Assembly: GCF_037038585.1 (NCBI RefSeq)
Contig: NC_092523.1
Coordinates: forward strand, 1,121,001-1,185,000
Direction of reading: 5' to 3'
DNA from: Patagioenas fasciata
Lineage: Eukaryota > Chordata > Aves > Columbiformes > Columbidae
Length of the DNA: 64,000 bases
The notes under the pieces: generated by a model
Told to the model about the DNA's origin: nothing
Seen by the model: the letters and a program-made list of their open reading frames with translations, nothing else
Database searches by the model: none
Translations under genes and position numbers: made by a program
Shown: positions 21,489-43,174 of the stretch, piece by piece
How positions within the stretch are numbered: the first letter of the stretch is position 1
Layout: each line of letters begins with the position of its first letter

Positions 21489-22025
21489 CAGTGCCTTGGT
21501 TTGCTGGTTGCGCAGTGTGTCTGCTCCTCCAGGAAATCACCAGCCTTGTGCTCCCAGCGTGGCCGAGTGTCTTTAACCCCCGGTTTTGTGTTCCCGAGCA
21601 GTGGGGCAGCTCTGGTGCAGCCGCACGTTTGCTGTGGCTGGGCTGGGGGTCAGTGCAGGCGCAGCTGTTTGCACCAGCTCCGTGCTGCCTGGCGCTCAGG
21701 AGGAGCCGGGCTGGTCACGGTTTCCCACCTCCCAGCCCAGGGGAACCAGCACCAGCTTTGCCTTGCACCACATAGACGGGAGAGATTGATTCTGCCAGCC
21801 ACACATTTCATAACCTTTTGTGTTACAAACCAGCGTGGGCTTAGAAAAAGTCATGTGTAATTTCACAACCTGAGTTATTTTACAAAGCCTTGTCTGTCAG
21901 TTGTGTTATTCAAGCATTTTTACCTATTTTAAAATGTTAAAGCGGCTGGAAGTTGTGTTTTGGAGGCTGCTTAGTCCTGGTGGTGGCTGAGGTGACACCG
22001 GCAGCGGCAGAGCTGCACCTGGTTT

Positions 22026-22130
22026 CAGCACAGCTGGGGTCACTGTCACCGGCACAGCTGGGGTCACTGTCACCGGCACAGCTCAGGTCACTGTCACCTG
22101 CACAGCTGGGGTCACTGTCACCAGCACCGC
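22026..22130. repeat. 24-bp tandem repeat, about four copies
   Basis: CACAGCTGGGGTCACTGTCA plus CCGG, repeated about four times with GCTCAGG and CTGC variants. Present in copy A only; the corresponding region is deleted in copy B. Confidence 0.9.
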
Positions 22131-22791
22131 TCTGCAATGAAGTCGTTTCTCCTGCTGGACACTGAATCTGTGTTTAAAGTTAAACCTGTGCTTTAAGTAA
22201 TTTTCAAGATTAAGGGTTTGCGTTGTACCCCTGGATAGATCTCATGCTTAACCTGCCGGTGATTCCCAATTAAAACTCTTGTCAAGTTATTATTGTTAAT
22301 ATAAAACAAATAAGGGTGTGTATGAGGAATTTCCTCAGACTTTGTGAGTGACCGTTAGCTGGAACATCATTAGGGGTGGGTGTTCTAGAGCTGAAGGCCT
22401 GAGAAGCGCTGCCTCTGGAGAAATGATGTTTGACTTACAGAGCCCGTGTTGTGTTGGGTTCTCCGACGTATTCAGCTGAATTTCCTGTGTGTGTTCATCA
22501 GTCCGGGCAGGCTGCAGGGCGTTTCTTGTCTTCTAATACAGATGGATTCATTTAATATGATGTATTTTGTTCGAGTTCCACTTAGACGCTTTTCTGTTCT
22601 TTAACAGCTTTTGATAATCAATGAGGATTTTAGTCTTTTGCGTAAAGAGGAATAATCCTATAAGGGAGAAATTTGATGTTGATGTCAGATTGTTTGAGGG
22701 AAGGTCGAGTATGGGGCGACGTAGCCAGGAGTGTGAAATGCGGCCGTTGGATGCACTAATGAAGCTTCTCTGGGTGTTTTTGTGCCCTCAG

Positions 22792-22853
22792 GACTGGATT
22801 CTGCACCAGAACTCCACCTCTCACATCGAGAGCTGCCGGCAGCTGCGCCAACA
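22792..22853 (+). CDS. ZNF638: ZNF638 exon 3A: second half of matrin-type zinc finger 1
   Basis: CCCTCAG precedes 22792 and GTAAGAG follows 22853; 62 nt, entering in phase 0 and leaving after two bases of a Gln codon. It encodes DWILHQNSTSHIESCRQLRQ, which carries the two His ligands (LHQN and SHIESC) completing the finger whose CSLC half ends exon 2. The exon is identical to exon 3B. Confidence 0.93.
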
Positions 22854-23083
22854 GTAAGAGCTGCTTGGGGTGCGGGTGCCGGGCGTGCGCTGCGCAGAGG
22901 CAGCGGCTGCGCCAGCGCGGGCCGGGGTGTCCGACTGTGCCCGGCGCTGGCTCGGGAGGGAAGGGCCGAGCTCGGCGCTTCGGGAGCGCAGGGCAGGGCC
23001 CGTGGCTGAAGCGCTGCCGCGCGTGGGCAGAGCTGGGGCTGCAGCGGCGGCTTTGTCACTGACGGATGTGTTCCCCTGCACAG

Positions 23084-23122
23084 GTACCCCGACTGGAACC
23101 CCGAGTCTTATTCCTCCAAGAG
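23084..23122 (+). CDS. ZNF638: ZNF638 exon 4A
   Basis: A 39-nt exon between TGCACAG and GTAACT. It completes the Gln codon and encodes YPDWNPESYSSKR, a very conserved tail of the matrin-type finger in ZNF638. The phase matches exons 3A and 5A. It is identical to exon 4B, as is the intron before it. Confidence 0.92.
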
Positions 23123-23561
23123 GTAACTGCTTGTTACTTTCGTTTTTACCTTGTTGCTCTTAGAAACATAGTAATGCCATTAATTTTCCCATTCTGCTCC
23201 CTGACAAGCTCTGTTAGTGGTGTCGTATTTTCATTCTCAAATGGTGTGGGTGCTTGTGTGGTTTTTGACCTGAGTTATTGAATACTCTGAGTGTCCTGGC
23301 ATTGCAAAGTGTGTCCAAGGCTGAGAGTGGAGTCTGTGGAAAAGGCTGAGGGTGAATCTTGTTACCCCTTGACTCTTCTGCCTGTGCCTGGGTTTGCTGT
23401 GAGGGACTGAACTGAGACAGCGGTGACGGAGGAGACCGAGACCGGTGTGACATCCTGATTAAACCAGGGAACTGCTTTTGTTCAGGAAGGCTGTTTCAAT
23501 AGTCTTGGGTTAATTACTGCTTTCTGCCTTGTCCAAACTCACTCTGTGTTTGTTCCACTAG

Positions 23562-23875
23562 AAATGCGGGTGAGAGGAAGGAGAACCAGACCCCGAAGCG
23601 CCGTTCAGGCTCCGGCAGCCGCAGCCCCAGCCCCCGGCGCTCGCGGGGCTCCAGCTCCAGCTCCGCTCGGCGCCGCTCGCGCTCCAGGTCCAGGAACCCC
23701 GGCCGGTACTGGCCAACGCGGCCGAGATGCTGGAGCCCGCGGCCCATGCGGCGACCGAGCCCCAGACACAGGTCCCGCTCACCGCAGCGATCCAGGAACC
23801 CGCTGAGAACCAGCCCCCGGCCCCGCAGATCCGCCAGTAACGACTGGGCAGCCCGGAGATCCAGCGGCTCCCAAG
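23562..23875 (+). CDS. ZNF638: ZNF638 exon 5A: arginine/serine-rich region
   Basis: A 314-nt exon between CCACTAG and GTAAAG. It starts NAGERKENQTPKRRSGSG and continues with dense RS and SP dipeptides (RSRSRS, SPRRSR, SPRHRSRSPQRSRNP). RS regions of this family drive nuclear speckle localisation and splicing-factor contacts. Compared with copy B it reads SSSSS for GSSS and RNPGR for RSPGR, and SSGSQ for SNGSQ. The donor context is slightly weaker than that of 5B (GTAAAG against GTAAGG). Confidence 0.92.
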
Positions 23876-24786
23876 GTAAAGGGGCCGACGCGCCGCCCAA
23901 GTGGAACGGCCTTCCAGTGCGGGAAAACTGACTTGGTTTCAAGAGGTTTATTTTCAGGGGTCATCCAGGTGCTTTTCTTTCTGGTTTTGAAGAGAACCTT
24001 TTGCTGTTGCTTTGTGAGCAGCTGGGAGGAGAATGGGCGCTCTGGAAGGTCTGAAGTTTCCCTGCCCTGCTGTCACAGTTGGTTCATCACAGCAGTAACT
24101 GCTGAGCAGGGGCTGCTCCACGCGTGCTCAGGTTTTAAGCCAGCGAGGGTAGTCAGGGATTGAAGAGAACTGAAATGTCATCTTTATCGTTAAAACCAGT
24201 TCTGCAAAGGCAACAGAGCTGAGGGGCAGACTATGGGCTGCCCGGGTGCTGCGCTGAAACACCCATGAACACCCTTTGTAACAGTGACGCTTGTTGTACC
24301 GTGTTGTGCCTGTTCAACTCCCTCCAGTTCGCAGCTCTGGGAAATTCCGGGTGAGCTCCGTCGGTTCCTTGTGCCTCAGTTAGAGTTCGGTCTCTGCCTG
24401 AAATACCCGTTTGTTCGGAGTTTTTGTTTCTTTTTGAATTCTGAAGAGAAAACAACAGGACTGTTAGAGGTTTGCTTTTCGTGGTGTGCAGGCTGCGCTG
24501 TCTGTGCACGTTCAGAGAATGGAGAGGTGCCGAGCTCTCCTCGAGGTGAAAGGTTGCGAAGGGACAGGCAGTTTCCAAAAGATCTTCTTCTTAAGGGTCC
24601 AAAGCAACTGTAGGAAAGATGAGAGGAAGAGGTGATTAAGAACCAAAACATCAGTTTTCCTCAGAAAGCAAGCGTGCAGGAAAGAAATGTGGTGTCAGAT
24701 TGTAAAAGAAGAATTTAAAAGAATGGTCTGTAGGGCAGAGAGCGAGACAGAGGATGATACAGGGTATATTAAAGAATCCTTCCTTG

Positions 24787-25216
24787 CTGCAGCTGGCAGG
24801 GCGTCCTGTGCAGGGGCAGCAGTTGGGCCCCATGGCCCTGCGGGTCCTTCCAGCTCAGCTCGTTCTGCGATTCTCCCCCCACTCCATGGTGCAGCCAGGA
24901 TTGTTTGGTCATGTAAATGAACCGCGGTTCTAGGTCTCTCTCAGGGCCATTAAGCCAGGGACAGGACACGCGGGAATGGTTCAAAGCTGTGCCAGGGATG
25001 TTGAGGCTTGACAAAAGGCAACATTCCTTTCCTGTGTGGGCAGTCACACACGAACAGGCTTTCCAAGGAGGTGGTCGGCGCCCCAGACCTGTCAGTGTTT
25101 AAGAGGCACTTGGATAATGTCCTTAATAATGTTCTTGAACATTTGGTCAGCCCTGAATTGCTCAGGCAGTTGGACTAGATGATCACTGCAGGGCCCTACC
25201 AACTCAACTATTCTAT
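24787..25216 (+). mobile_element. CR1-like fragments in intron 5A
   Basis: Two pieces in sense: about 24787-24882 (ending in GTCCTTCCAGCTCAGCTCG and TCTGCGATTCT) and 24940-25216 (GTTTAAGAGGCACTTGGATA then GTTGGACTAGATGATCACTG). Absent from copy B. Confidence 0.7.
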
Positions 25217-25389
25217 TAACGTTTATAGACCATCTCTGCCGGAGCGTGATTGAAGTTCTTGAGCGGCTCTCGAGATGGAATGGGGAGTGGGTGCTGAAAG
25301 TACAGCTGCAGAAAACCAAACAGTGATATATGTGCCTTTTCTCCTCAAAACAAACCAACCCACCCCGTTTGTTTCCCCTCCGCTCACAG

Positions 25390-25718
25390 ACAGAAAACCT
25401 TCTCTGGAGACGGTGGTGAAAACGCTGAGACCCGACTTCGTAGCCGAGATCACCAAGCACAAGTCGCTTCAGGCCGGCGGGCCAGGGCCTTCGGGCTCGG
25501 GCAAAGCGCCGCGCTCGCACCCGCTGGTGGGGAAGAAGCCGCTGAAAGCACGAGTTTCTGCCAAGGCTTCGAAGAAAGGTGGGACTGCGGTACCTGGGTC
25601 GAGTTCCTCGCCTCCTGAAGCGGATGATTTACCCCAGAGCCAAGAAGTGGAAGAGGAGGAGGAAGAGGAAGAGGCGTCCCCAGGAGGCGGCGGAGCTCAT
25701 CCCGCTGCTGACAACAGG
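25390..25718 (+). CDS. ZNF638: ZNF638 exon 6A: linker with acidic tract
   Basis: A 329-nt exon between CGCTCACAG and GTGAGC, ending on a codon boundary. It encodes DRKPSLETVVKTLRPDFVAE and then a basic Ser/Lys stretch. A poly-Glu run (VEEEEEEEEASPG) and a Gly/Ala-rich end follow. The Glu run is two residues shorter than in copy B, where an Asp-containing 6-bp insertion is present. Copy A also reads KASKKGG where copy B reads KALKKGG. Confidence 0.92.
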
Positions 25719-26036
25719 GTGAGCGCCTGCAGGTTTTCTCTGTTTTCCGAATTGGGTTCGTGTCTCAGTGCGGGGGTCACTTGTGGACAGATGAACCGTT
25801 CTGTTTGCTGATCCTGTGCAACAGACAATGGGTGTTCATGCAGGATTGCTGGCTGCAGCAATGGTCATTTACACTGCGGGGATTTTGTAACAGCTCTGAA
25901 GCAAAATCTCTCCAGAGCTTTGCAACAGCGGAGACAAAAGTCTGCTAATTTGGGTTCTGGTTGTACTGGGTACTTGTTTCTATAAAACGTGAGTGATGAG
26001 CTCTGTGGGGAGGAGCTTATTGTGTAGTTAAAAGTA

Positions 26037-26595
26037 TAAAATCCTAGAATGTCCTGAGCTGGAGGGACACACAGGATCATGGAGTCCAGCTCCTGTCCCT
26101 GCACAGGACACCCCACAGGTCACCCCGTGTGTCTGAGGACGCTGTCCAGTCTCTTCTTGAACACTGTCAGGTTGGGCCGTGACACCTCCCTGGGAGCCTG
26201 TTCAGTGTCCAGCACCTCTGGGTGAAGAACCTTTGCCTCATGTCCCACTGACCCTCCCTGGCACATCTGCCGTTCCCTGGGCTCTGTCACTGTCACAGAG
26301 CAGAGCTCACCCTGCCCCTCCTGCTCCTGCTGAGGAACCTGCAGCCCATGGGCTCTGCCCTCAGTCTGCTCTGCTCCAGCTGAGCAAACCCAGGGACTGC
26401 AGCCGCTGCTCACACGGCTTCATCTCCAAACCTTCACCGACTTCACAGCCTCCTCTGGACACTCCAGTAGCTTTATCTCCTTTTCCCTGTGTCCCCAGCC
26501 CTGCACACAGTGAATGCTCCAGGTGAGGCCGCCCCAGCGCAGAGCAGAGCGGGACAATCTCCCCCTGCCCGGCTGGGGATGATGTGCTTGGAGTC
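26037..26595 (-). mobile_element. CR1 fragment (antisense) in intron 6A
   Basis: GTCCTGAGCTGGAGGGACAC at the low end is a reversed 3' tail; the rest (TCCAGTCTCTTCTTGAACAC, GACACCTCCCTGGGAGCCTG) is the complement of CR1 ORF2 3' sequence. Absent from copy B. Confidence 0.75.
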
Positions 26596-28545
26596 ACAGA
26601 TCGGTTTGGGTTGAATCACAGATCAGTTTGGGTTGGAAGGGACCTTTAAAGGTCATGTCATCCATTCCTGATGCACCCCAGGGTGCTGGATGCGCCAGGA
26701 CACGGGTCCCTCTTGGTGCCCGGGACACTGTTGGCTCATGTTCAACTTGTCATCCACCAACCCCCAGATCCCTCTGCACGGAGCTGCTCTGCAGCATCTC
26801 ATCCCCCATCTGTCTGTACAGCCAGGGCTGCCGTGTCCCACATCACCTCAGCGCGCAAGATGGCGGCCCCAGGGGCACCCAGATCACCTCAGAGCTCAGA
26901 GCGGTGTCACCAGGGACACCCAGATCACCTCAGAGCTCAGAGCGGTGTCACCAGGGACACCCAGATCACCTCAGGGTTCAGAGCGGTGTCACCAGGGACA
27001 CCCAGATCACCTCAGGGTTCAGAGCGGTGTCACCAGGGGCACCCAGATCACCTCAGGACTTGGAATGGCGGCCACAGGGACACCCAGATCACCTCAGGGC
27101 CCAGAACGGCGGCCCCAGGGGCACCCAGATCACCTCAGGACTTGGAATGGCGGCCACAGGGACACCCAGATCACCTCAGGGCCCAGAACGGTGTCACCAG
27201 GGGCACCCAGATCACCTCAGGACTTGGAATGGCGGCCACAGGGACACCCAGATCACCTCAGGGCCCAGAGCGGTGTCACCAGGGGCACCCAGATCACCTC
27301 AGGACTTGGAACGGCGGCCACAGGGACACCCAGATCACCTCAGGGCCCAGAGCGGTGTCACCAGGGGCACCCAGATCACCTCAGGACTTGGAATGGCGGC
27401 CCCAGGGACACCCAGATCACCTCAGGGCCCAGAGCGGTGTCACCAGGGGCACCCAGATCACCTCAGGGCCCAGAACGGCGGCCCCAGGGGCACCCAGATC
27501 ACCTCAGGGCTCAGAGCGGTGTCACCAGGGGCACCCAGATCACCTCAGGACCCAGAACGGTGTCACCGGGGGCACCCAGATCACCTCGGGACTTGGAACG
27601 GCAGCCCCAGGGGCACCCAGATCACCTCAGGACCCAGAACGATGTCACCGGGGGCACCCAGATCACCTCAGGGCTCGGAATGGCGGCCCCAGGGGCGCCC
27701 AGATCACCTCAGGGCCCAGAACGATGTCACCAGGAACACCCAGATCACCTCAGGACTCAGAGCGGTGTCACCAGGGGCACCCAGATCACCTCAGGGCTCA
27801 GAGCGGTGTCACCAGGGGCACCCAGATCACTTCAGGGCTCAGAGCGGTATCACCAGGGACACCCAGATCACCTCAGGGCTCAGAGCGGTATCACCAGGGA
27901 CACCCAGATCACCTCAGGGCTCAGAGCGGTATCACCAGGGACACCCAGATCACCTCAGGGCTCAGAGCGGTATCACCAGGGACACCCAGATCACCTCAGG
28001 GCTCAGAGCGGTATCACCAGGGACACCCAGATCACCTCAGGGCTCGGAATGGCAGCCTCAGGGGTGGCAGGATCAGCTCCCAACAAGACAGACCTTGTCC
28101 CAGATGCAAACTCCATCACTTGCCCTTGTTGAGCTTCCTGCGGCTGGTGGTTGCCCAGTTCTCCAGTTTGTCCAGGTCCCTGTCGGGGCCTCTCAGCCCT
28201 CCGCAGTGTCCACAGCTCCTCTCAGTTTAGTGTCCTCAGCAAACTTACTTAGAATTCCCTCGAGTCCTGTGCCCAAGTCATTGATGAAGACGTTAGTGTT
28301 GGATCCTGTGGAACCCGACATGACCCCCTTTCCCAGAACCCTTGGACCATGAGCCCATCACTCACCCACCGCCCGCTGTGCTCCCCCAGCCCTGTGGGGA
28401 CACCTTGTCCAGGAGGGTCCTGTGGGAGACGCCATCAAAGGCTTTGCTTGAATCCAAACCCATCACATCGACAGGGGTGGGATCATGGAGCTACTCAGGA
28501 GCTGCCCAGGCAGTCAGGGCTGTGTGGATCTGCAGGACTTGATGG
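26596..28545 (-). mobile_element. CR1-like element (antisense) split by a 41-bp minisatellite
   Basis: Left part 26596-26858 starts with a reversed CR1 tail (GTTTGGGTTGGAAGGGACCT) and reaches GGGCTGCCGTGTCCCA. Right part 28063-28545 continues GTCCCAGATGCAAACTCC, GTGGTTGCCCAGTTCTCC and TGTCCTCAGCAAACTTACTT. The minisatellite lies between them, so it expanded inside the element. Confidence 0.7.
26859..28062. repeat. 41-bp minisatellite, about 29 copies, with 82-bp higher order
   Basis: Unit: CACCCAGATCACCTCAGGGC followed by TCAGAGCGGTGTCACCAGGGG. From about 27040 to 27420 two unit types alternate (TCAGAGCGGTGTCACC and ACTTGGAATGGCGGCCAC), giving an 82-bp higher-order period. The last seven or so units (27840-28050) are nearly uniform with GGTATCACC. 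As 41 x 3 = 123, all frames stay open; not coding. Confidence 0.97.
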
Positions 28546-28786
28546 AAACTAAAAGGTGATGTTGTGTCTCTTGGTGATGCCGTGTCCTGGCTTCTGGGCC
28601 CTGAGGAATGGGGCAGAGCAGGAGAACAACAATATTACGGCTCTGTCCTCGTGTTAAAAAGCAAGAAACTCCAAATACCACGGTGACTTAAGCAGTCCGA
28701 CTGCTTCGGGGTAATTTATATTACTCATCCTTTTTGCTTGTTGTTACTTGACTTGCAAAGCGTTTACTTTTGGTTTTACTTTGCAG

Positions 28787-28933
28787 CTGTTGAGTGAGGA
28801 GCTGCTGAGTTTTGGGACAGTCCTTCAGATCTCCGATTTACCGGACGACGGCTTCACAGACCAAGACATTAAGAACATTTTCCAGCCGTTCGGCAAAGTC
28901 AGTGACATCCTTGTGCTTCGCTCCAGGAACGAG
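28787..28933 (+). CDS. ZNF638: ZNF638 exon 7A: RRM1, first half
   Basis: A 147-nt exon (49 codons, phase 0 to 0) between TTTGCAG and GTGAGT. It encodes LLSEELLSFGTVLQISDLPD and KNIFQPFGKVSDILVLRSRNE. LQISDL is the RNP2 strand of an RNA-recognition motif and FQPFGKVSD is the typical helix-to-strand turn. The family's usual split of RRM1 at this point is preserved, with RNP1 in the next exon. Confidence 0.94.
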
Positions 28934-29280
28934 GTGAGTTTCCTCGGAAAGCGCTGTCAGGCAATGGAAAAGTGTCATTTTTGGATGCCCAGCTGAACAG
29001 GCTTCCTGAAGAGCGTGTCGTTAAAGATCACGTACATAATTGCGGAATGGCTGTGAATTTAACTTATTAAATTCAGCCTTGCTTGCTACTGAGTCTTAAA
29101 TGTCAGAGGAATTAGGATAGTATTTGTATAATACTGAAATCCTGACTTTTTCATCGGACTCCCCGTGAACTTAGAAAGCTTGTGCAGTTCTGCTGGGAGC
29201 AGCTTTGCTCGGCAAAACTGCAGCAAAGTCTGTCCTGTGTCTGTGGTGTCAACAAGGACTGAAAGGACCGTTTATTTTAG

Positions 29281-29412
29281 GCTTTCTTGGAAATGAACTA
29301 CAAGGAAGCCGTGATCGCAGCTGTGAAATACGGAGAGACCGTGCCCGTGCTGGTGAACGGGAAGCGGGTGAAGATCAGCGTCGCGGAGAAGCCAAAGGAG
29401 CCTCCTGGGCCG
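29281..29412 (+). CDS. ZNF638: ZNF638 exon 8A: RRM1, second half
   Basis: A 132-nt exon (44 codons) between TTTATTTTAG and GTGAGT. It encodes AFLEMNYKEAVIAAVKYGET and then VPVLVNGKRVKISVAEKPK. AFLEMNYK is the RNP1-like strand, with Leu/Met where canonical RNP1 has aromatic residues, as usual for matrin-family RRMs. Copy B differs at K/E, E/K and the last residue (P/L). Confidence 0.93.
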
Positions 29413-29745
29413 GTGAGTGCGGGAGACTGCGTGTGGCCGTGGGCGCTGCCTGCTCTGCTCCACAAAACACGCTTAGGAGTTGAGTTTATGTATTATTTGA
29501 TATTTTTAAATTTCCTTTTTCTAACCATCGGTCTAAAACACACATAAAAACACACTTCATAGCTCAGGTTCCTTGTTTTATTTTGCTAAGTTTGGTATTT
29601 GCGAATATAATCGGTGGCAAGCGAGAGATAACCCGTATGTTAATATCTATACACACTTAATAATATTTATGTATGCGTATATACACACACATTTGTATGT
29701 GAAGTATGAAGGATGCAGTAAATTTCTCCTTTCTGTCCCTTTCAG

Positions 29746-29804
29746 GCCAAAACTGTGATCAAAAAACGGGCTCAGACTCCTAAAAAAGCCGCACCGAGTA
29801 CAAA
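29746..29804 (+). CDS. ZNF638: ZNF638 exon 9A: basic linker
   Basis: A 59-nt exon between CTTTCAG and GTGAGT, encoding AKTVIKKRAQTPKKAAPST. It differs from exon 9B at six of 59 bases, five of them changing residues. This is by far the most diverged exon pair in the duplication, although the splice sites match exactly. Confidence 0.88.
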
Positions 29805-29987
29805 GTGAGTGTTGCCTCGCGTGTTTGTGGTAGCGACAACCACTGCAAACCACGCACTTCATATCAGTTTGGCTTTGTGTTTTCCCGGGTCTGGGTTTTT
29901 TTAGCTGTTTGAATATTGTTGTTGAATATTGTTGAAATCCGTTGTCTCTGACGCTGGTTTCTGTGTTTCGCCCCCTGCTCGCTCCAG

Positions 29988-30031
29988 GAAGCACCGGGCG
30001 CCCTCCACCAAGACAACAAAAGCCCTTCCAG
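29988..30031 (+). CDS. ZNF638: ZNF638 exon 10A: basic linker
   Basis: A 44-nt exon between CGCTCCAG and GTGAGC, encoding KHRAPSTKTTKALP; phases match both neighbours. Copy B encodes KHRTPSTKPTKPLP, three residues different. Confidence 0.88.
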
Positions 30032-31417
30032 GTGAGCTGCTGCCCCTTTCTCTATCAAACCCCCCATTGTTGCCTCCAGCTTTGTTCCCATGTCTGCGGT
30101 TTATGGACATGATTTCATTAATAGTGACTGAAACCGAGTCCAGAGCATTACAAGAAAACAACAGGTTTATACTTTCAAGTATCTTCATTTTCACATCACC
30201 CTATTTTTTTTCCCTTTAAAAAACCCCACAGAAAACAACCCTCAAGTAGCAAGAAAACCCCACCTTGGCCTGTGCTTGTGCTCTGTCTTTTTAAACGATT
30301 GCCTCATTGTTAAATAGAATTGTGGCACTTGTGCTCCATAAAGCTGACTTAAAGCTCGTGTGTATGTGCCGCTCTCTTTCGCAGTTGGTGCTGGGGCTCC
30401 CCGGTGCCTCATGTTCCTGTGGCTTCCACATGCTTAGAGGGTTCTGCCCTCATGCAGACAGAAGTTATTGCAATTACTATTAGTGCTTGGTCTGGCAGAG
30501 AAACTTCATGTCGTGAATTGTATTTTTAAATACTTCATTGAAAACAGGACAGACTGCAGTAAATATAGCAAAAGCCAATGAAACTTCACAAGGATTTGGC
30601 ATTATTAAGACATTGGAAATAACAGCCATATCATTTTATTTTGCTGATTTTATTGGCTTTTGTGAGCAGAGGTGGGGACCAAACGTTATTTTGAGGGAAA
30701 TGGTGCCTTTTAAACATGGTATTGGTCTTGGTTTGTGCGTCAGCGTCGTCGCGCCCAGCCCAGGCTCCAGCGGGAGCAGAGCTGCGTGTCACCGCGTCCC
30801 ACGGCCATCTCACACAGGAAAACACCACCCTGCTGCAGGAGGGAGCTTTTGCCCCCGGAATGCTAAAGAAACTCTCAAAGATGCTCTGTGGCTTCCAGTA
30901 GTTCGTTGGAATTAACTTACCCTTCAGTTTGGGGTTTTCTGTGTCTGATATGACACAAATGGAGTTGCTGCACAATAGTTTTGGATGTGGTTTTTTACTC
31001 TTACTTGACAAATGCAAGACTACAGAAATAAGCGTTTCTGTTGACTTACTTGGTTTTGGATATTTTACGTAGGTGAAAAGAGAATACTACATATGGGCAG
31101 GGACAGGAGACAGTGAATTCAGGCACCTTTCTTGCTGCTGGCTCACACTACCATAATTAACGGTGTTTGTAGATGCAGAACAGCAAAGAGCTGGGGAAAG
31201 GAGGCGAGACTGGGGCAGCAGAGCAGCCACAGAGCCACAGCCAGACCTTCGCTCCACAAAGCTTTTCCTGCAGGTTTCATCACGAGGAGCAGGGATTTAT
31301 GTGATTCTACCTCTGCATATCTGGCAGAAAAATGTATAGCGTTGTTCATTCTTGTTTTACAAATGGATGAGTTGAATGTACTGAACTGAGCAATGGTTTT
31401 CCTGCTGTTCCCCTCAG

Positions 31418-31579
31418 CAAAGCCCCCGGAAGGCACGGAGGCGGCAGCAGCCGGAGCGGCTGGCGCGGAAGCGCAGGCGGCAGAGCCAGAGAGCGGGAGC
31501 GGAGGGGACAGACGGACGGAGCCCGCGGCGGCAGCGCCGACGCAGCACAGCGGGGCGGCCGAGCCGGGCCCTGCGCCGG
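31418..31579 (+). CDS. ZNF638: ZNF638 exon 11A: Ala/Glu-rich linker
   Basis: A 162-nt exon between CCCCTCAG and GTAATT. In the phase carried from exon 10 it encodes AKPPEGTEAAAAGAAGAEAQ, then a Ser/Gly and Ala/Pro-rich stretch ending AAEPGPAP. The low-complexity composition prevents family matching on its own. The assignment rests on phase, splice sites and the near-identical exon 11B (T/A and A/G changes). Confidence 0.85.
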
Positions 31580-31675
31580 GTAATTCCCGGGCCGGCGGTT
31601 GAACTCGCGGTGCCGCTGGTGAGCGACGGGCAGTTTGACATCCTGGCGTCTTCTCAAACCTGTTCTTGGTTTCAG

Positions 31676-33190: not shown

Positions 33191-34277
33191 GTCAGTGTCC
33201 CTGCGCCCCGGAGCTACTCCTGCGCACGGCCCCTGCCCGGCCCTGCCTGCGCGTCCTGCGCACAACAGGGAGCGCCGGGCACTCTCTGGGTGCTGTTCGG
33301 GATCTGGTGGGCATCGACCACTTCACTCTTTGGCTGTTTGCTTTTCCAGGGGTTTTTATTGACCCCGAAGCTGCTTTGTTCTCTGATCACCCGCGTTGCC
33401 CTGCTCGGGGGTTCTTCAGATGCCATAGTTGCAATCCTTGTACATTTTAAAATCTTGCAGTGCCTTGGTTTGCTGGTTGCGCAGTGTGTCTGCTCCTCCA
33501 GGAAATCACCAGCCTGGTGCTCCCAGCGTGGCCGAGTGTCTTTAACCCCCGGTTTTGTGTTCCCGAGCAGTAGGGCAGCTCCGGTGCAGCCGCACGTTTG
33601 CTGTGGCTGGGCTGGGGGTCAGTGCAGGCGCAGCTGTTTGCACCAGCTCCGTGCTGCCCGGCGCTCAGGAGGAGCCGGGCTGGTCACGGTTTCCCACCTC
33701 CCAGCCCAGGGGAACCAGCACCAGCTTTGCCTTGCACCACATAGACGGGAGAGATTGATTCTGCCAGCCACACATTTCATAACCTTTTGTGTTACAAACC
33801 AGCGTGGGCTTAGGAAAAATCATGTGTGATTTCACAACCCGACTTATTTTACAAAGCCTTGTCTGTCAGTTGCATTGGTGTTTTGGGTTCTCTGATTTAT
33901 TCAGCTTAATTTACAGTGTGTGTCCATCAGTCTGGGCAGACTGCAGGTAGTTGTTTTCTTCTCCTACAGCCAGCTGTTGGATCAAGTTGTGCATTAGGAG
34001 TGTGGTGACAACAACCAGGGTGTTACTGGAAGCATTGACTTCATTTAATACGTTTTGTTCAACTTCCACTTAGGCGCTTTTCTGTTCTTTAACAGCTTTT
34101 GATAATCAATGGGTATTTTAGTCTTTTGCGTAAAGAGGAATAATCCTAAGGGAGAGATTTGATGTTGATGTCAGATTGTTTGAGGGCAGGTCGAGTATGG
34201 GCAGACGTAGCCAGGAGTGTGAAATGCGGCCGTTGGATGCACTAATGAAGCTTCTCTGGGTGTTTTTGTGCCCTCAG

Positions 34278-34339
34278 GACTGGATTCTGCACCAGAACTC
34301 CACCTCTCACATCGAGAGCTGCCGGCAGCTGCGCCAACA
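34278..34339 (+). CDS. ZNF638: ZNF638 exon 3B: duplicate of zinc finger 1 second half
   Basis: Identical to exon 3A, with the same splice sites and phase 0 entry. If it follows exon 13A in the transcript, the His half of the finger has no CSLC partner, so the second copy would not form a normal finger. If exon 2 splices directly to 3B, a normal finger results. Confidence 0.92.
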
Positions 34340-34569
34340 GTAAGAGCTGCTTGGGGTGCGGGTGCCGGGCGTGCGCTGCGCAGAGGCAGCGGCTGCGCCA
34401 GCGCGGGCCGGGGTGTCCGACTGTGCCCGGCGCTGGCTCGGGAGGGAAGGGCCGAGCTCGGCGCTTCGGGAGCGCAGGGCAGGGCCCGTGGCTGAAGCGC
34501 TGCCGCGCGTGGGCAGAGCTGGGGCTGCAGCGGCGGCTTTGTCACTGACGGATGTGTTCCCCTGCACAG

Positions 34570-34608
34570 GTACCCCGACTGGAACCCCGAGTCTTATTCC
34601 TCCAAGAG
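34570..34608 (+). CDS. ZNF638: ZNF638 exon 4B
   Basis: 39 nt, identical to exon 4A, encoding YPDWNPESYSSKR between a TGCACAG acceptor and a GTAACT donor. Confidence 0.91.
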
Positions 34609-35869
34609 GTAACTGCTTGTTACTTTCGTTTTTACCTTGTTGCTCTTAGAAACATAGTAATGCCATTAATTTTCCCATTCTGCTCCCTGACAAGCTCTGT
34701 TAGTGGTGTTGTATTTTCATTCTCAAATGGTGTGGGTGCTTGTGTGGTTTTTGTCCTGAGTTCATTGAACACTGTAAGTGGTGCAGGATTGCAAAGTGTG
34801 TCCAAGGCTGAGAGTGGAGTCTGTGGAAAAGGCTGAGGGTGAATCTTGTTACCCCTTGACCCTTCTGCCTGTGCCTGGGTTTGCTGTGAGGGACTGAACG
34901 GAGACAGCGGTGACGGAGGAGACCGAGACCGGTGTGACATCCTGATTAAACCGCATGATTTCTGACTTGTAGGTTTAATCTTTGTCCACTTAGGCCACTC
35001 GGTGTGACCGCAGGCGTGTGCGTGTACAGCTGCTGGCAGCGGGTGCCGCGCCGGCCCCTCCGGCCCCAGGCCCCTGGGGAGCTACGTGAGCACAAGCTGA
35101 GAACACTCAGAATTCATGAGCTCATGTCTCTTCTGGCCTTAAAAATATGCTGTTTACTATTAACTTTTTTAAAAACCCCCACACCCTGTGGACTAATTCT
35201 TCCTGAACCTCAGCAAGATTGGATTATTTTACTGGTTCAATATTTGTATCTTGCATCCAAATAGGTATCATAGGACTGAAATTGGTGCTGGATTTTCCTG
35301 TGACTTTGTGTTAATTAGTTTGACACACTTCTGGGAGTTAACTATTCCCTTTAAAAAATGATGTTACAGAGCTGAATGTGTAGGTCAGGTAGGTCGGGTC
35401 AGTTTGCAGAGCGCAGCTGAGGTCTCTCCAAGGGGAAATGAAGCTTTAGAAGAGAAAGAAGAGGAAGAAAGCTCATAATAATTATCCTCACAAAAGTTTC
35501 TAAAGATGGTGTTTTCAAACCTCACTCTGCAACAGCTGCCCGGTGCTGCTGGTGGTGCAGCTGGGGCAAAGGGAGCTGATTTCACTGCAGCACATCAGTG
35601 AATGGGAGAAGTTCTGGTGAGCGAGGGCTGGGCTGTGCAAGGGTCGCGGTGCTTCCTGCAGCCCTTCCTGACAGCAGCACATCTGCTCCGATGGATATTC
35701 TGGGATGTTCTGTCCCAATGTGGCTCTGTGCTCTCGGGCAGGGTCAATGAGCCGCCCGCCCTTACCCTCCAGGAACCCCAGAAATTGGGAGGGTTGGGTA
35801 ATACATTCAAACAGTTTTATTTGGCACAGGAATAATGGGGTTTAAATGGATTGTTAGTGATGTTTGGAG

Positions 35870-36192
35870 TGAATGGGACATCGCTCCGTGGGGTGGGACA
35901 TGGTTGAGGTGGGAGCTGGCCGGTCGGGCTCTGCTCCAGGCAGCAAGTGACAGGACAAGAGCGGCCTCAGGTTGCCCAGGGGAGGCTGAGGTTGGATCTG
36001 GGAACAATTTCTTCCCCAAAGGGCTGTGGGGCATTGAACAGGCTGCCCAGGGCAGTGCTGGAGTCAACATCCCTGGAGGGCTGGACAGACGGACAGGAGG
36101 TTCTCAGGACAGGGGGGCAGGGACAGACTGAGGTTAAGTTGGACTCGATGATCCTGAGGGTCTTTTCCAACCAATTCTATGATTCTATGGGA
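35870..36192 (+). mobile_element. CR1-like element in intron 4B
   Basis: GAGGTTGGATCTGGGAACAA, GGCTGCCCAGGGCAGTGCTG and a tail ending TTCTATGATTCTATGG. Private to copy B. Confidence 0.85.
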
Positions 36193-36766
36193 AGTTCACC
36201 AAAAATGTTGAGGATATTTAAGCACAACTCTGTCCGTTTTCAGGGTTTCCCTTTGCCTGCTGGGGTCTGTCCTGGCAGGGCTCCTGTGCCTGACAGCTTC
36301 CCGTGTCTCTAGGGGACGCGGTTTCCTCCCTGGATCTCCTCACTGTTGCTTCTTTCCATGCTCTTCCTCAGTTTAACATTTCTAGGCAGGATCAAAATGT
36401 AGAGGACGTGTATTTATGTATCCTCCCCAGTCTCTCGGTCTCTTTTAGCTGTAATATCTCAAGGTTGCTTATTTCCAAACTAAATTCGGAAGAAGCCAGG
36501 GAAGTATCTTAATTCTTTACTCTTTCATGTATCCTTTTGTCTTTGTGTTATTTTTCCACAGCGTTGCAGCTTGTAACTTTAGTTTTCTTTACAGCTTTGT
36601 CTTGTTCCGTGCAGGTTTTCCTCTCCTCCTTGCACCTTTTCAGTTGTGTCTGCCTGTCCTAAATGAATATGGACACGTGTTACCAGTATGTAAAGTACGT
36701 TTAGTAACAAAAAGTTCGTTCGTTAACAGACAGACTCTAAACTTTGTCACTTTGGGTTTCTGTTAG

Positions 36767-37080
36767 AAATGCGGGTGAGAGGAAGGAGAACCAGACCCCG
36801 AAGCGCCGTTCGGGCTCCGGCAGCCGCAGCCCCAGCCCCCGGCGCTCGCGGGGCTCCGGCTCCAGCTCCGCTCGGCGCCGCTCGCGCTCCAGGTCCAGGA
36901 GCCCCGGCCGGTACTGGCCAACGCGGCCGAGATGCTGGAGCCCGCGACCCATGCGGCGGCCGAGCCCCAGACACAGGTCCCGCTCACCGCAGCGATCCAG
37001 GAACCCGCTGAGAACCAGCCCCCGGCCCCGCAGATCCGCCAGTAACGACTGGGCAGCCCGGAGATCCAACGGCTCCCAAG
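36767..37080 (+). CDS. ZNF638: ZNF638 exon 5B: duplicate RS region
   Basis: 314 nt between CTGTTAG and GTAAGG, the same length and frame as 5A, with a few substitutions that keep the RS/SP pattern (RSRSRSRSPGR). The intron before it is unrelated to the short intron 4A, so the homology of this exon begins very close to the acceptor. Confidence 0.92.
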
Positions 37081-37152
37081 GTAAGGGGGCCGACGCGCCG
37101 CCCAAGTGGAACGGCCTTCCAGTGCGGGAAAACTGACTTGGTTTCAAGAGGT

Positions 37153-37606
37153 TTATCGCAGGGCAACAGAGATGCTGAAGGGAGTGGAGCATCTCCCGTG
37201 TGAGGAAAGGCTGAGGGAGCTGGGGCTCTGGAGCTGTTTAGAGAAGAGGAGACTGAGGGGGGACTCATTCCTGGGGATCAATATGGAAAGGGGCAGTGTC
37301 AGGAGGATGGAGCCAGGCTCTTCTGGGTGACAACCAGTGACAGGACAAGGGGCAATGGGTGCAAACTGGAACACAGGAGGTTCCACTGAAAGATGAGAAA
37401 CAACTTGTTTGGGGTGAGGGTGTCAGAGCCTGGCCCAGGCTGCCCAGGGGGGTTGTGGAGTCTCCTTCTCTGCAGACATTCAAACCCGCCTGGACACCTT
37501 CCTGTGGAACCTCAGCTGGGTGTTCCTGCTCCAGGGGGGCTTGCACTGGATGGGCTTTTGAGGTCCCTTCAACCCCTGACACTCTGGGGTCTTGTGATCT
37601 GTCAGG
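37153..37606 (+). mobile_element. CR1 insertion in intron 5B, private to copy B
   Basis: A 5'-truncated CR1 (begins CGCAGGGCAACAGAGATGCT) ending in a tail at about 37605. It splits sequence continuous in copy A: AAGAGGTTTAT then TTTCAGGGGTCATCC in A, AAGAGGTTTAT then CR1 then CTGTCAGGGGTCATCC in B. Copy A therefore shows the empty site. Confidence 0.93.
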
Positions 37607-38641
37607 GGTCATCCAGGTGCTTTTCTTTCTGGTTTTGAAAAGAACCTTTTGCTGTTGCTTTGTGAGCAGCTGGGAGGAGAATGGGCGCTCTGGAAGGTCT
37701 GAAGTTTCCTGCCCTGCTCTCACAGTTGGTTCATCACAGCAGTAACTGCTGAGCAGGGGCTGCTCCACGCGTGCTCAGGTTTTAAGCCAGCGAGGGTAGT
37801 CGGGGATTGAAGAGAACTGAAATGTCATCTTTATCGTTAAAACCAGTTCTGCAAAGGCAACATGTTGACTTCATTCAGAGCTCGGTCTCTGGCTCGAACA
37901 CCGGTTTGTTTGGCGTTGTTCTTCTTTTTACATTCTGAAAGGGAAAAAAAGAACAGAGGCGTTTTTGGAGGTCCGTTTGGTTTGTTCTCCTCGGGTCTGT
38001 TCTGTGGCTGTTGTCTGTGTGCTCTCCGAAAATCAAGAGGTGCCGAGCCCTTGTGGCGAAAATGTGGAGGTGAAGAGTTGTGAAGGGACAGGCAGCTCCA
38101 AAAGCATCTTAAGGATAAACCTCAGACCATTGTAATGCAGAAGAAATGAGAGGAAAAAGCAATTAATAACCCAAATATAAATTTTCCCCTGAAAGCAAGT
38201 GTACAGGAAATAAATGTTATATCAGGTCATTAAAGGTTAACTGAAAACAACGGTCTGTAGGGCAAAGAGCAGGCAGGAGGGTGCAGAGTTCAGCAGCTCC
38301 TGCTGTCTATCGCTGTGTGAGAAGAGAACCAAAGGCTCAAAAACTTCTTTTATTTTCTTCCATTCCATGACGTAGTAAATTAACCAATCATTCTCTTGCT
38401 CCAGCCCGTAGGGTTTTTGTAGATAACATGGTCAGTTTAAAACACACAGTGAAAATAGCACAGAGGGTTATTATTTAGAGACCATCTCTGCCGCAGCGTG
38501 ATTGAAGTTCTTGAGCGGCTCTCGAGATGGAATGGGGAGTGGGTGCTGAAAGTACAGCTGCAGAAAACCAAACAGTGATATATGTGCCTTTTCTCCTCAA
38601 AACAAACCAGCCCACCCCGTTTGTTTCCCCTCCGCTCACAG

Positions 38642-38976
38642 ACAGAAAACCTTCTCTGGAGACGGTGGTGAAAACGCTGAGACCCGACTTCGTAGCCGAG
38701 ATCACCAAGCACAAGTCGCTTCAGGCCGGCGGGCCAGGGCCTTCGGGCTCGGGCAAAGCGCCGCGCTCGCACCCGCTGGTGGGGAAGAAGCCGCTGAAAG
38801 CACGAGTTTCTGCCAAGGCTTTGAAGAAAGGTGGGACTGCGGTACCTGGGTCGAGTTCCTCGCCTCCTGAAGCGGATGATTTACCCCAGAGCCAAGAAGT
38901 GGAAGAGGAGGAGGACGAGGAAGAGGAAGAGGCGTCCCCAGGAGGCGGCGGAGCTCATCCCGCTGCTGACAACAGG
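38642..38976 (+). CDS. ZNF638: ZNF638 exon 6B: duplicate linker with acidic tract
   Basis: 335 nt between CGCTCACAG and GTGAGC. It differs from 6A mainly by a 6-bp insertion lengthening the Glu run (VEEEEDEEEEEASPG) and by S/L in KALKKGG. Frame and phase are kept. Confidence 0.92.
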
Positions 38977-39499
38977 GTGAGCGCCTGCAGGTTTTCTCTG
39001 TTTTCCGAATTGGGTTCGTGTCTCAGTGCGGGGGTCACTTGTGGAAAGGTCTCTGAGAAACAGCACCTGGAAAGCAGCCGGAGCTGTGGTTGCTGTAGAC
39101 ACCATGGTGCTTGGAGGCTGGAAACCTCCCAGCGGCGAGCAGAGAGGACATCGCCTGTGCTGCCGAGGGGAAGGGTGGCGCTGGAAGGAGAGTGGTGGGC
39201 TCGTGGAGCTCCTCAGCAGCCACCCGACACTCAGGGCTCTGTGGATCTGTAGGGCTTGAGAGAAACTCAAAGGTGATGTTGTGTCACTCGGTAATGCCCT
39301 GTGCTGGCTTCTGGGCTCTGGAGAATGAGGCAGAGCAGGGGAACAAGGAAATATCAGCTGTGTCCTTGCGCTTTTATTCAGAATACCCCAGTGAACTGGG
39401 CAGATCGACTAATTCAGAGCAATTCTTACTACACGTCCTTTCCTGTCTCCTTTACTGGACTTGGAAGGTGTCTATTTTTGTTCTGTTTGTACTCCGTAG

Positions 39500-39646
39500 C
39501 TGTTGAGTGAGGAGCTGCTGAGTTTTGGGACAGTCCTTCAGATCTCCGATTTACCAGATGATGGCTTCACAGACCAAGACATTAAGAACATTTTCCAGCC
39601 GTTCGGCAAAGTCAGTGACATCCTTGTGCTTCGCTCCAGGAACGAG
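39500..39646 (+). CDS. ZNF638: ZNF638 exon 7B: duplicate RRM1, first half
   Basis: 147 nt between TCCGTAG and GTGAGT. It encodes the same protein as 7A with only silent differences seen (for example CCAGATGAT for CCGGACGAC). RNP2 LQISDL is intact. Confidence 0.93.
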
Positions 39647-39781
39647 GTGAGTTTCCCGCAGGACGTTTTGCTGTCGGGATGCAGAAAAAACGCTGTGAGC
39701 CGGTTTGCTCGGGCAAAACTGCAGCAAAGTCTGTCTTGTGTCTGTGATGTCAATAAAGACTGAAAGGGCCGTTTATTTTAG

Positions 39782-39913
39782 GCTTTCTTGGAAATGAACT
39801 ACAAGGAAGCCGTGATCGCAGCTGTGGAATATGGCAAAACTGTGCCCGTGCTGGTGAACGGGAAGCGGGTGAAGATCAGCGTCGCGGAGAAGCCAAAGGA
39901 GCCTCCTGGGCTG
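39782..39913 (+). CDS. ZNF638: ZNF638 exon 8B: duplicate RRM1, second half
   Basis: 132 nt between TTTATTTTAG and GTGAGT, encoding AFLEMNYKEAVIAAVEYGKT then VPVLVNGKRVKISVAEKPK. Differences from 8A are K/E, E/K and terminal P/L. The RNP1-like strand is intact, so a full RRM1 is encoded in each copy. Confidence 0.93.
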
Positions 39914-40065
39914 GTGAGTGCGGGAGACTGCGTGTGGCCATGGGCGCTGCCTGCTCTGCTCCACAAAACACGCTTAGGAGTTTTAATGGATTTTTAAATT
40001 TCCTTTTCACAACCATCAGTCTAAAATATGTATGAAAGCACACTTTCTGATTCCTGTATCCAAAC

Positions 40066-40650
40066 TAGCATGGTCAGCAGGACAAGGGCAGTGATCCTTC
40101 CCCTGTGCTCCGCATTGGGGAGGCCACAGCTGGAGTGTTGTGTTCAGTTCTGGGCCCCTCAGCTCAGGAAAGAGATTGAAGTGCTGGAGCGGGTCCAGAG
40201 AAGAGCAACAAGACTGGGGAAGGGACTTGAGCACAAGCCCTATGGGGAGAGGCTGAGGGAGCTGGGCTTGTTCAGTCTGGAGCAGAGGAGGCTTAGAGGT
40301 GAGCTCAGCACTCTCTAGAACGACCTGAAGGGCAGTTCTAGCCAGGGGGGATTGGGCTCTTCTCCCAGGCAGTCAGCAATAGGACAAGGGGGCATGGGCT
40401 TCAACTCTGCCAGGGGCAATTGAGGCTGGAGATGAGAAAGCAATTCTGTGCAGAGAGAGTGGTCAGCATTGGAATGGCTGCCCAGGGAGGTGCTGGACTC
40501 ACCGGCCCTGGAGGTTTGTAAACTGAGATTGGCCATGGCACTTAGTGCCATGATCTGGTCAATGGGCTGGAGTTGGACCAAGGGTTGGACTGGATGAGCT
40601 CTGAGGGCTTTTCCAGCCCAGTCCATTCTGCGATTCTGTCATTCTGGTTT
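40066..40650 (+). mobile_element. CR1-like element in intron 8B, private to copy B
   Basis: CTGGAGTGTTGTGTTCAGTT, the GAGAGGCTGAGGGAGCTGGG block and a tail GATTCTGTCATTCT. Intron 8A has no counterpart, although its flanks (TCTAAAACACACATAAAAAC against TCTAAAATATGTATGAAAGC) align. Confidence 0.88.
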
Positions 40651-40813
40651 TTTTGGATGAGTTTCCTATTTTTGAATAGTGTCTGTCACCAGTGAAAGAT
40701 AACCCCTGTATTAATACACACGTAATTAATGGTATCTATACATACATATACACACACATTTGTATGTGAAGTATAAAGGATGCAGTAAAAGTTCTCCTTT
40801 CTGTCCATTTCAG

Positions 40814-40872
40814 GCCAAACCTGTGACCAAAAAACAGGCTCAGAATCCTAAAAGAGCTGCACCGAGTACAAA
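40814..40872 (+). CDS. ZNF638: ZNF638 exon 9B: basic linker
   Basis: 59 nt between ATTTCAG and GTGAGT, encoding AKPVTKKQAQNPKRAAPST. Six base changes from 9A within 59 nt, five of them altering residues. Confidence 0.87.
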
Positions 40873-41041
40873 GTGAGTGTTGCCAACTGCTTTTTAGTGT
40901 TAGTGACAACTATTGGAAACCAGATGGGTCATATCAGTTTGGCTTTGTGCTTTACTGGTTTTCGGCTTCTTTTAGCTGTTTCAATACTCAATTGTCTTTG
41001 AAGCTGATTTTTCTGTATCTTCCCTCCCCTGCTCACTCCAG

Positions 41042-41085
41042 GAAGCACCGGACGCCTTCCACCAAGCCAACAAAACCCCTTCCAG
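41042..41085 (+). CDS. ZNF638: ZNF638 exon 10B: basic linker
   Basis: 44 nt between CACTCCAG and GTGAGT, encoding KHRTPSTKPTKPLP, in phase with exons 9B and 11B. Confidence 0.87.
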
Positions 41086-41298
41086 GTGAGTTTGGGCAGC
41101 AGAACTGCAGCCGCACATTCGCTTGGCAAAGCTTTTCCTGTAGGGACATTTTCATCACATTTGTCACGAGAAGGAATTTATGTGATTGTACCTCTGCATA
41201 TCTGGCAGAAAAATGTATAGCGTTGTTCATTCTTGTTTTACAAATGGATGAGTTGAATGTACTGAACTGAGCAATGGTTTTCCTGCTGTTCCCCTCAG

Positions 41299-41460
41299 CA
41301 AAGCCCCCGGAAGGCGCGGAGGCGGCAGCAGCCGGAGCGGCCGGTGGGGAAGCGCAGGCGGCAGAGCCAGAGAGCGGGAGCGGAGGGGACAGACGGACGG
41401 AGCCCGCGGCGGCAGCGCCGACGCAGCACAGCGGGGCGGCCGAGCCGGGCCCTGCGCCGG
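41299..41460 (+). CDS. ZNF638: ZNF638 exon 11B: Ala/Glu-rich linker
   Basis: 162 nt between CCCCTCAG and GTAATT, the same length as 11A, beginning AKPPEGAEAAAAGAAGGEAQ. The intron before it is only 213 bp, against about 1.4 kb in copy A. Confidence 0.85.
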
Positions 41461-41556
41461 GTAATTCCCGGGCCGGCGGTTGAACTCGCGGTGCCGCTGG
41501 TGAGCGACGGGCAGTTTGACATCCTGGCGTCTTCTCAAACCTGTTCTTGGTTTCAG

Positions 41557-41628
41557 AGCCGCTTGCGCAGGCGCCGGAGGCGGCGGTGGCGGACGTGGGT
41601 GCGGTTGATGAAGCTGTGGCTGATCAAG
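41557..41628 (+). CDS. ZNF638: ZNF638 exon 12B: acidic linker
   Basis: 72 nt between GGTTTCAG and GTACGC, identical to exon 12A. Confidence 0.85.
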
Positions 41629-42049
41629 GTACGCTGCAAACTGCTGGGTTTTGTCTTTTCTGTCCTAAACCGTTCTGCTGTGTGAACTGAAGGAGAAGCT
41701 TTTGCGGCCGGGAAATTCAGACGGCAGAGGTGTCAGGAAAGAAGCTCTGTTAGAATAGGTTAGATGGCTGAAACCTGAAACAGCAGTTCATTGTGGTGAC
41801 TGAAGTGGCCAAAACCCCCCAGATTTCCATCTTTCAGCAGAGATAGTGTTTTTACATAGACCCGTTCAGTGCCACATGGAGACTTCTATTTACAGCCCAT
41901 TGGAGCAAAGGATTCGGGGTGTCTGTGTGTTCTGTTTGCAGCTGCACCACTGACTCCATTAACCCCAGCGCTTCCATTGCCCGCTCAGCTGCTGCAATAG
42001 GTGCTGTTTTCCCCAGATTTTATAACTCAGTAGGGTAGAATATCTAATA

Positions 42050-42404
42050 TTGAGTTGGAACAGATCTACAGCGATCATCTCATCTGCCTGCCTGACAAAT
42101 CCAGGGCTGACCAGAAGTTAAAGTGAATTATTTAGGGCTTTGACCAAATGCCTCTTAAACACTGAGGGGCTTGGGGCATCAAGTTCTACCTGGAGAGGTT
42201 GAGGTTGGATCTGGGAACAATTTCTTCCCCAAAGGGCTGTGGGGCATTGAACAGGCTGCCCAGGGCAGTGCTGGAGTCACCATCCCTGGAGGGCTGGACA
42301 GACGGACATGGGGTTCTCAGGACATGGGGCAGGGACAGGGTGGGTTATGGGTGGACTCCATGATCTTAAATATCTTTCCCAACCCAAATGATCCTGTGAT
42401 AACC
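42050..42404. mobile_element. Two CR1 tails in intron 12B
   Basis: A reversed CR1 tail (about 42050-42175, GATCATCTCATCTGCC, GCCTCTTAAACACTGA) directly followed by a sense fragment (42176-42404) ending CCCAAATGATCCTGTGAT. The sense tail shares its 3' junction with 32662 in copy A. Confidence 0.7.
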
Positions 42405-42901
42405 ATTTGACAGCAGCAGTGATTCTCCTTCAGCTGCCCTGTGTCACTGCTGGTTTCCTGGCTCTGGTTTCCTGAGCCTCTCGCATGGCACTGTGGGCTT
42501 TTCCCAGGAAAAAGAAAGAACACCAAAGATTTTTGTGGGCACACACTGGGCACCTCCACAGTCCCTGGGTGCCCACGGGAGACTCTTGTGGCCGTGGTTG
42601 TTCCACTGGTAAAGCCTTAATGGCAGCAGAGTGTTCTGTGTTAATTAAGGGATTTTAGTTATTTTTTTAATCTCTACTTAACGCTCTTCCCTGTGGAAGC
42701 ATTTCTAGAACCGTACATTTCCATAACTGCACATGTATACCTGTGTGTGTCTCAGCAGTGCCATTAGTCGCTGTACATGAAATGAAGGGCTGTGTCACGT
42801 CCGCAATGACAGCAGTGATCAGGCGCCACGCGGGGGGCTCTGACGCCGTGCAGGGTCCCAGGGACTCTGCCGAGCTCTCAGCCCCCGCCCGTTTGTTTCA
42901 G

Positions 42902-42954
42902 AAGCTCCGCGAGCGGCTGTGAAGAGCGAGGAGCCCCCGGCCCCCGGCGGCAAG
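42902..42954 (+). CDS. ZNF638: ZNF638 exon 13B
   Basis: 53 nt between TTGTTTCAG and GTCAGT, encoding EAPRAAVKSEEPPAPGGK and ending on a codon boundary, which matches the phase-0 start of exon 14 (RRM2). Confidence 0.88.
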
Positions 42955-43174
42955 GTCAGTGTCCCTGCGCCCCGGAGCTGCTCCTGCGCACGGCCCCTGC
43001 CCGGCCCTGCCTGCGCGTCCTGCGCACAACAGGGAGCGCCGGGCACTCTCTGGGTGCTGTTCGGGATCTGGTGGACGTCGACCACTTCACTCTTTGGCTG
43101 TTTGCTTTTCCAGGGGTTTTTATTGACCCCGAAGCTGCTTTGTTCTCTGATCACCCGCATTGCCCTGCTCGGGG

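Follow-up and report, generated by a model that had tools for sequence, protein, structure and literature searches.

Does the ZNF638 gene of Patagioenas fasciata carry a true tandem copy of eleven of its coding exons, and if so, how old is it and are both copies used? The question arises from a 64,000-nt stretch of the assembly GCF_037038585.1 (NC_092523.1:1121001-1185000, forward strand, on an 81.5-Mb contig; below, the window), in which a first-pass annotation had proposed that exons 3-13 are present twice. The tandem eleven-exon duplication inside ZNF638 is confirmed in the sequence. The identity between the copies is uneven, forming a mosaic of approximately 98% and approximately 77% tracts that had not been described in that annotation. 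With a probability of about 0.8, we interpret this locus as a genuine old internal tandem duplication that was patchily homogenised by gene conversion.

Structure of the duplicated block

Comparison of the window with itself by BLAST yielded two direct collinear copies, A and B (Table 1), and no N occurs in the window, the A/B junction included. Five blocks of 262-921 bp align at 96.9-98.5% identity, and more collinear blocks at 68-95%; this likeness is not due to chance. The previously proposed right edges (33410 and 43174) hold, whereas both left edges are situated 8 bases further left, at 21481 and 33450. Genome-wide searches covered the 1.45-Gb assembly (359 contigs), the best candidates alone being scored and very common words skipped. 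When the 301 bases around the junction were used as the query, three places matched: the junction itself, the beginning of A and the final part of B. The RRM1 exons were found in A and B only (four matches) and the flank with exons 14-15 once; neither a third RRM1 copy nor a second such flank was found among the candidates scored.

The block comprises eleven exons over approximately 10-12 kb in the middle of the coding sequence. As had been claimed, all eleven are found twice, with intact GT-AG sites in both copies, and their lengths are equal with the exception of exon 6 (329 vs 335 nt, hence the 6-nt difference reported before). Read from the codons, the end of exon 2, the start of exon 3, the end of exon 13 and the start of exon 14 are all in phase 0, and the block is therefore of phase 0-0, being 1413 nt (471 aa) long in A and 1419 nt (473 aa) in B. 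Each combination is open to one terminal stop: 2012 codons with A only, 2014 with B only, 2485 with A and B, and 1541 with neither, the stop included and counting from inside exon 2, as the model has no upstream first exon and start codon.

The assignment to ZNF638 is supported by the RRM1 match. For RRM1 (exons 7-8), the best match in PDB, first of 16 sequences, is human ZNF638 (6sxw_A, E 4.6e-23), followed by RBM20 (1e-15) and Matrin-3 (2.7e-11), and in both copies RRM1 scores above the 20.7-bit cut-off of the Pfam RRM family, with 30.3 bits in one and 31 in the other. In the translation of exons 2 and 3, a CxxC...H...H zinc finger 1 of the matrin/U1 type is seen by eye ahead of the RS region, with a Pfam zf-C2H2_jaz score below the cut-off (16.2 vs 22.6 bits).

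Mosaic of identity between the copies

Introns 3 (230 bases) and 11 (96 bases) are identical in A and B. A three-state hidden Markov model, with identity levels set by hand at 0.985, 0.76 and 0.48, assigned 3032 noncoding columns to the high-identity state (p 0.0195) and 1419 to the diverged one (p 0.256, some poor alignment included). Identical noncoding columns form an unbroken run of up to 405, whereas in 2000 permutations the longest run averaged 65.5 and never exceeded 136. When only the high tracts were permuted, a run of at least 405 columns appeared in 30 of 2000 permutations, and this rarity hints at conversion in more than one episode.

At the other extreme, three collinear intron segments, picked as cleanly alignable (the diverged stretches of introns 2, 7, 8, 10 and 12 being omitted), carry 79/357, 66/291 and 34/162 substitutions, that is, 21-23% divergence, with Kimura two-parameter distances (K2P) of 0.27, 0.28 and 0.25. 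Their homology is significant by BLAST, with scores of 130, 431 (including exon 7) and 339 bits (including exons 9-10). The corresponding identities of 77-79% are computed without gap columns; with these included, BLAST gives 68% for the intron-5 segment. Intron 9 aligns in full, with 79.0% identity over 162 aligned bases, compared to a shuffled mean of 67.7 and a maximum of 71.2; because end gaps were cheap in the intron alignment, even shuffled sequence (ten shuffles for each intron) averages 68-83%. A dispersed repeat as the source of the diverged intron-5 tract was rejected: the tract has two scored genome matches, itself and its partner copy (E 3.9e-28).

In hand-chosen noncoding ranges of copy A, some stretches of which have no partner in B, the GC content is 0.531 in high-identity and 0.447 in diverged tracts, as GC-biased conversion would give; the opposite trend is seen in the diverged tract 26533-28784 (0.60), which holds a minisatellite. 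This minisatellite (41-bp unit, 28.7 copies, 26869-28045) is found in intron 6 of copy A alone.

Predicted use of the two blocks in the transcript

There are two main variants of splicing to be distinguished. If both blocks are included in series, a single transcript would encode a ZNF638 in which the RS region and RRM1 each occur twice. Judging by the gene model, we consider this the probable default product, since nearest-neighbour intron sizes favour A followed by B: the introns would be 5749 nt (2-3A), 1087 nt (13A-3B) and 612 nt (13B-14), compared to 17235 nt for 2-3B and 10376 nt for 13A-14.

Alternatively, exon 2 could be joined to either 3A or 3B, and either 13A or 13B to exon 14, yielding two isoforms, each with one block and a complete finger. 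This would be the main rival to serial inclusion, and it has several features in its favour: every combination is in frame, exon 3 together with the 22 bases before it is identical in both copies, the CxxC half of the finger is supplied by exon 2 only, and A and B are unlike each other in the charges of RRM1 and in the linker of exons 9-10. Still, we regard it as unlikely, given the intron sizes; the identity of exon 3, in turn, can come from conversion. Zinc finger 1 is completed by exons 2 and 3, and 3B following 13A makes a half finger with no CxxC, so in the predicted A+B isoform it would be an orphan. The 13A-3B fusion piece matched no Pfam family.

Constraint on the two copies

If one copy were a decaying, unused block, its exons would be expected to lose their frames and splice sites. 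Neither copy, however, has a stop, a frameshift or a lost AG or GT, and exons 7-10 differ by 20/382 substitutions and no indels, compared to 179/810 substitutions and 26 indels in the three intron segments (Fisher p 5e-15 for substitutions and 6e-5 for indels). As these exons are far less changed than the introns, both copies seem to have stayed constrained. The three A/B differences in exon 7 are all synonymous; the synonymous (dS) and nonsynonymous (dN) divergences are 0.119 and 0.014 for exons 7-8, and 0.040 and 0.017 for all exons. By these comparisons, the copies have conserved RRM1, whereas the basic linker encoded by exons 9-10 is either free or undergoing change. The acceptors of 5A and 5B, and of 7A and 7B, lie in dissimilar intron contexts, yet each has an AG after a pyrimidine-rich stretch.

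One cluster in exon 8 stands apart: at 29326-29340 / 39827-39841, 6 of 15 bases differ, with near-identical sequence on either side. Codons 313 and 316 of the block, which fall in this cluster, encode K and E in copy A, as in the aligned human 6sxw, and E and K in copy B.

Two observations would fit decay, namely the eight amino-acid-changing vs two silent differences in exons 9-10 and the partnerless half-finger of the A+B isoform; against the intact exons and the Pfam scores of both RRM1, we find this explanation improbable. Since each copy has retained its reading frames, its splice sites and a conserved RRM1, both are probably used.

Estimated age of the duplication and probable gene conversion

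The proposed course of events is as follows. Breaks in introns 2 and 13 would have led to the copying of the eleven-exon block head to tail; over tens of millions of years, as the intron divergence suggests, the copies would then have drifted apart, and neighbour-to-neighbour gene conversion would have overwritten parts of exons 3-6 and 11-13 with their introns, producing the mosaic. Neutral rates in birds are given as 2-3.9e-9 per site per year in PMC2946954, and with these rates the K2P values of 0.25-0.28 would place the split of the copies at about 32-69 My ago, and the high-identity tracts at about 2.5-5 My on average. Rates in crocodilians and turtles are slower, according to PMC4263362, and using them would only make the duplication older. 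A repeat insert in intron 8 of copy B alone (40071-40640), which shares approximately 69-76% identity with further elements of the window and is presumably CR1-like, may possibly serve as a lower bound for the duplication age.

The same mosaic could in principle be produced by a recent duplication (2-5 My) with no conversion, the diverged tracts being due to local mutation or later insertions. Indeed, unalignable stretches aside, most aligned noncoding columns are approximately 98% identical (3032 vs 1419), and several of the stretches that do not align consist of insertions or of repeats confined to one copy, such as the minisatellite and the inserts taken to be CR1-like. On the other hand, the diverged segments are collinear and include all of intron 9, the intron-5 segment is not a repeat, and an approximately ten-fold rise of the local rate would have to be switched on and off several times, which makes this explanation hardly tenable.

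False haplotype duplication, in which the assembler laid two alleles end to end and which the first-pass annotation had named as the scenario that would overturn its reading, shares with this locus the tandem near-identical blocks, and many A/B blocks are indeed approximately 98% identical; it is rejected as very unlikely, since allelic divergence is low and even, whereas here a 2%/22% mosaic is observed, with intron stretches at 98-100% adjoining collinear ones at 77-79% with 26 indels, which two haplotypes under ordinary variation would not give, a gap-free junction carrying a 39-nt filler, a diverged intron-5 tract that is not a repeat, and no further copy of RRM1 or of the flank with exons 14-15 among the scored genome candidates. 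Nor did the surrounding 184 kb show any other collinear duplication of comparable size among the same-strand hits that were 200 bp or longer and separated by less than 40 kb; apart from one small tandem pair, what remains there looks like minisatellites and dispersed repeats.

Several points weigh against an old, conversion-homogenised and constrained duplication. In exons 9-10, dN is 0.110 and dS 0.079 on 35 codons, and purifying selection is not visible. The synonymous divergence of exons 7-10 (0.106) is much lower than that of the introns, suggesting that these exons were partly converted or that their synonymous sites are constrained. Conversion is deduced from the mosaic alone, and strong purifying selection over 3 kb of intron, although unlikely, would mimic it. 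Intron 6 as a whole has 83.8% identity, compared to a mean of 81.9 and a maximum of 83.8 in ten shuffles, and only its two ends align. Finally, in the predicted A+B isoform the second half-finger seems to serve no purpose.

Gene model and neighbourhood

Table 1. Coordinates of the block copies, tracts and exons in the window (1-based; ZNF638 of P. fasciata)
Feature	Position	Strand	Description	Source
Copy A	21481..33410	+	from late intron 2 into early intron 13	self-comparison
Copy B	33450..43174	+		self-comparison
Filler at A/B junction, 39 nt	33411..33449	+	resembles neither flank	
High-identity tract, A	22587..23282, partner 34075-34769	+	noncoding columns 98.7% identical; probably a product of gene conversion	
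Diverged intron-5 tract, A	24368..24743, partner 37863-38270	+	77.9% over 24376-24743 (357 columns) without gap columns, 68% with	
Diverged intron-6 tract, A	28480..28786, partner 39190-39499	+	77.3% without gap columns	
Dispersed-repeat insert	37157..37601	+	copy B alone, within high-identity tract; presumably CR1-like	
Exon 2	15407..17042	+	N-terminal region and CxxC half of zinc finger 1; phase 0 end; AG/GTAAGT, open frame; single in window	
Exon 3A	22792..22853	+	zinc finger 1, second half; same as 3B letter for letter	
Exon 4A	23084..23122	+	identical to 4B	
Exon 5A	23562..23875	+	RS region	
Exon 6A	25390..25718	+	acidic linker	
Exon 7A	28787..28933	+	RRM1, first half	Pfam, PDB match
Exon 8A	29281..29412	+	RRM1, second half	Pfam, PDB match
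Exon 9A	29746..29804	+		
Exon 10A	29988..30031	+		
Exon 11A	31418..31579	+	Ala/Glu linker	
Exon 12A	31676..31747	+	identical to 12B	
Exon 13A	33138..33190	+	phase 0 end	
Exon 3B	34278..34339	+	complete finger after exon 2; orphan half finger after exon 13A	
Exon 4B	34570..34608	+		
Exon 5B	36767..37080	+	second RS region	
Exon 6B	38642..38976	+	acidic linker, +6 nt vs 6A	
Exon 7B	39500..39646	+	second RRM1, first half	Pfam
Exon 8B	39782..39913	+	second RRM1, second half; two charge changes vs 8A	Pfam
Exon 9B	40814..40872	+		
Exon 10B	41042..41085	+		
Exon 11B	41299..41460	+		
Exon 12B	41557..41628	+		
Exon 13B	42902..42954	+	phase 0 end	
Exon 14	43567..43698	+	single copy; next RRM-like domain, first half; phase 0 start	
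Exon 15	43846..43974	+	single copy; next RRM-like domain, second half	

Downstream of the block, exons 14-15 resemble ZNF638 RRM1 (4e-9), RBM20 and Matrin-3 in the PDB search, being under the Pfam cut-off, and the piece from exons 17-18 matched no Pfam family. At the 3' end, the gene model has a short low-confidence exon (61530-61555), with AATAAA at about 61803. No matrin-type zinc finger was found after exon 22 on the + strand in 57000-64000 plus 60 kb downstream, and none of the four hits of a regular-expression scan of the 184-kb region is downstream of the gene; a split or altered finger would escape these patterns. The C-terminal zinc finger may have been lost, be divergent, or have been overlooked by the motif scan.

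The small tandem pair (approximately 0.6 kb) is found at contig positions 1234040-1235717, past the downstream end of the window by approximately 49 kb. Of its two pieces, one has 236 bp with 98.7% identity and the other 238 bp with 89.9%, and approximately 1.0-1.2 kb separate the copies. Upstream of the gene, a perfect 12-bp tandem repeat is present in 21 copies at 100% identity (6297-6550).

Discussion

The gene resembles human ZNF638 (NP220) in RRM1 (PDB 6sxw) and presumably in the junction-split zinc finger 1, the RS region, the following RRM-like domain and the acidic repeats near the C-terminus. It differs from the single-block form in having exons 3-13 twice and in showing no C-terminal zinc finger in the motif scan. 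In PDB, RRM1 and the RRM-like domain after it find matches in both paralogues, Matrin-3 and RBM20, neither of which is known to carry a tandem copy of an exon block. The domain organisation is common to all three proteins, according to PMC12795506. No account of such a ZNF638 duplication was found among open-licence PMC titles and the starts of abstracts, an absence that is weak evidence.

Gene conversion homogenises exon arrays of the UGT1 and protocadherin type. In these arrays, neighbouring exon copies lie in one gene; arrays of this kind are described in PMC1885805 and PMC2764143. They differ from the present case in that the copies are alternative variable exons, whereas here an internal block of eleven exons has been copied in the middle of the coding sequence. 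The locus is a clear case of likely gene conversion within one coding gene, and if the estimated age is right, many related species should share the duplication.

ZNF638 is of importance because it is reported to recruit HUSH against foreign and mobile DNA, promoting H3K9me3 silencing of unintegrated viral DNA (PMC11910234 and PMC8865469). This natural variant, in which the RS-RRM1 module is doubled and each of the two is open in frame and for the most part under constraint, lends itself as an experiment on what the module does. Additional RS sequence and further RNA/DNA contacts in each molecule would raise the avidity for the targets of ZNF638/HUSH silencing. Tentatively, one may also imagine a whole clade with a double-block ZNF638, its copies kept alike by conversion, in which the two RS-RRM1 modules, acting jointly or alternately, might widen or strengthen the recognition of retroelement and viral DNA or RNA by the HUSH pathway, as an arms-race adaptation.

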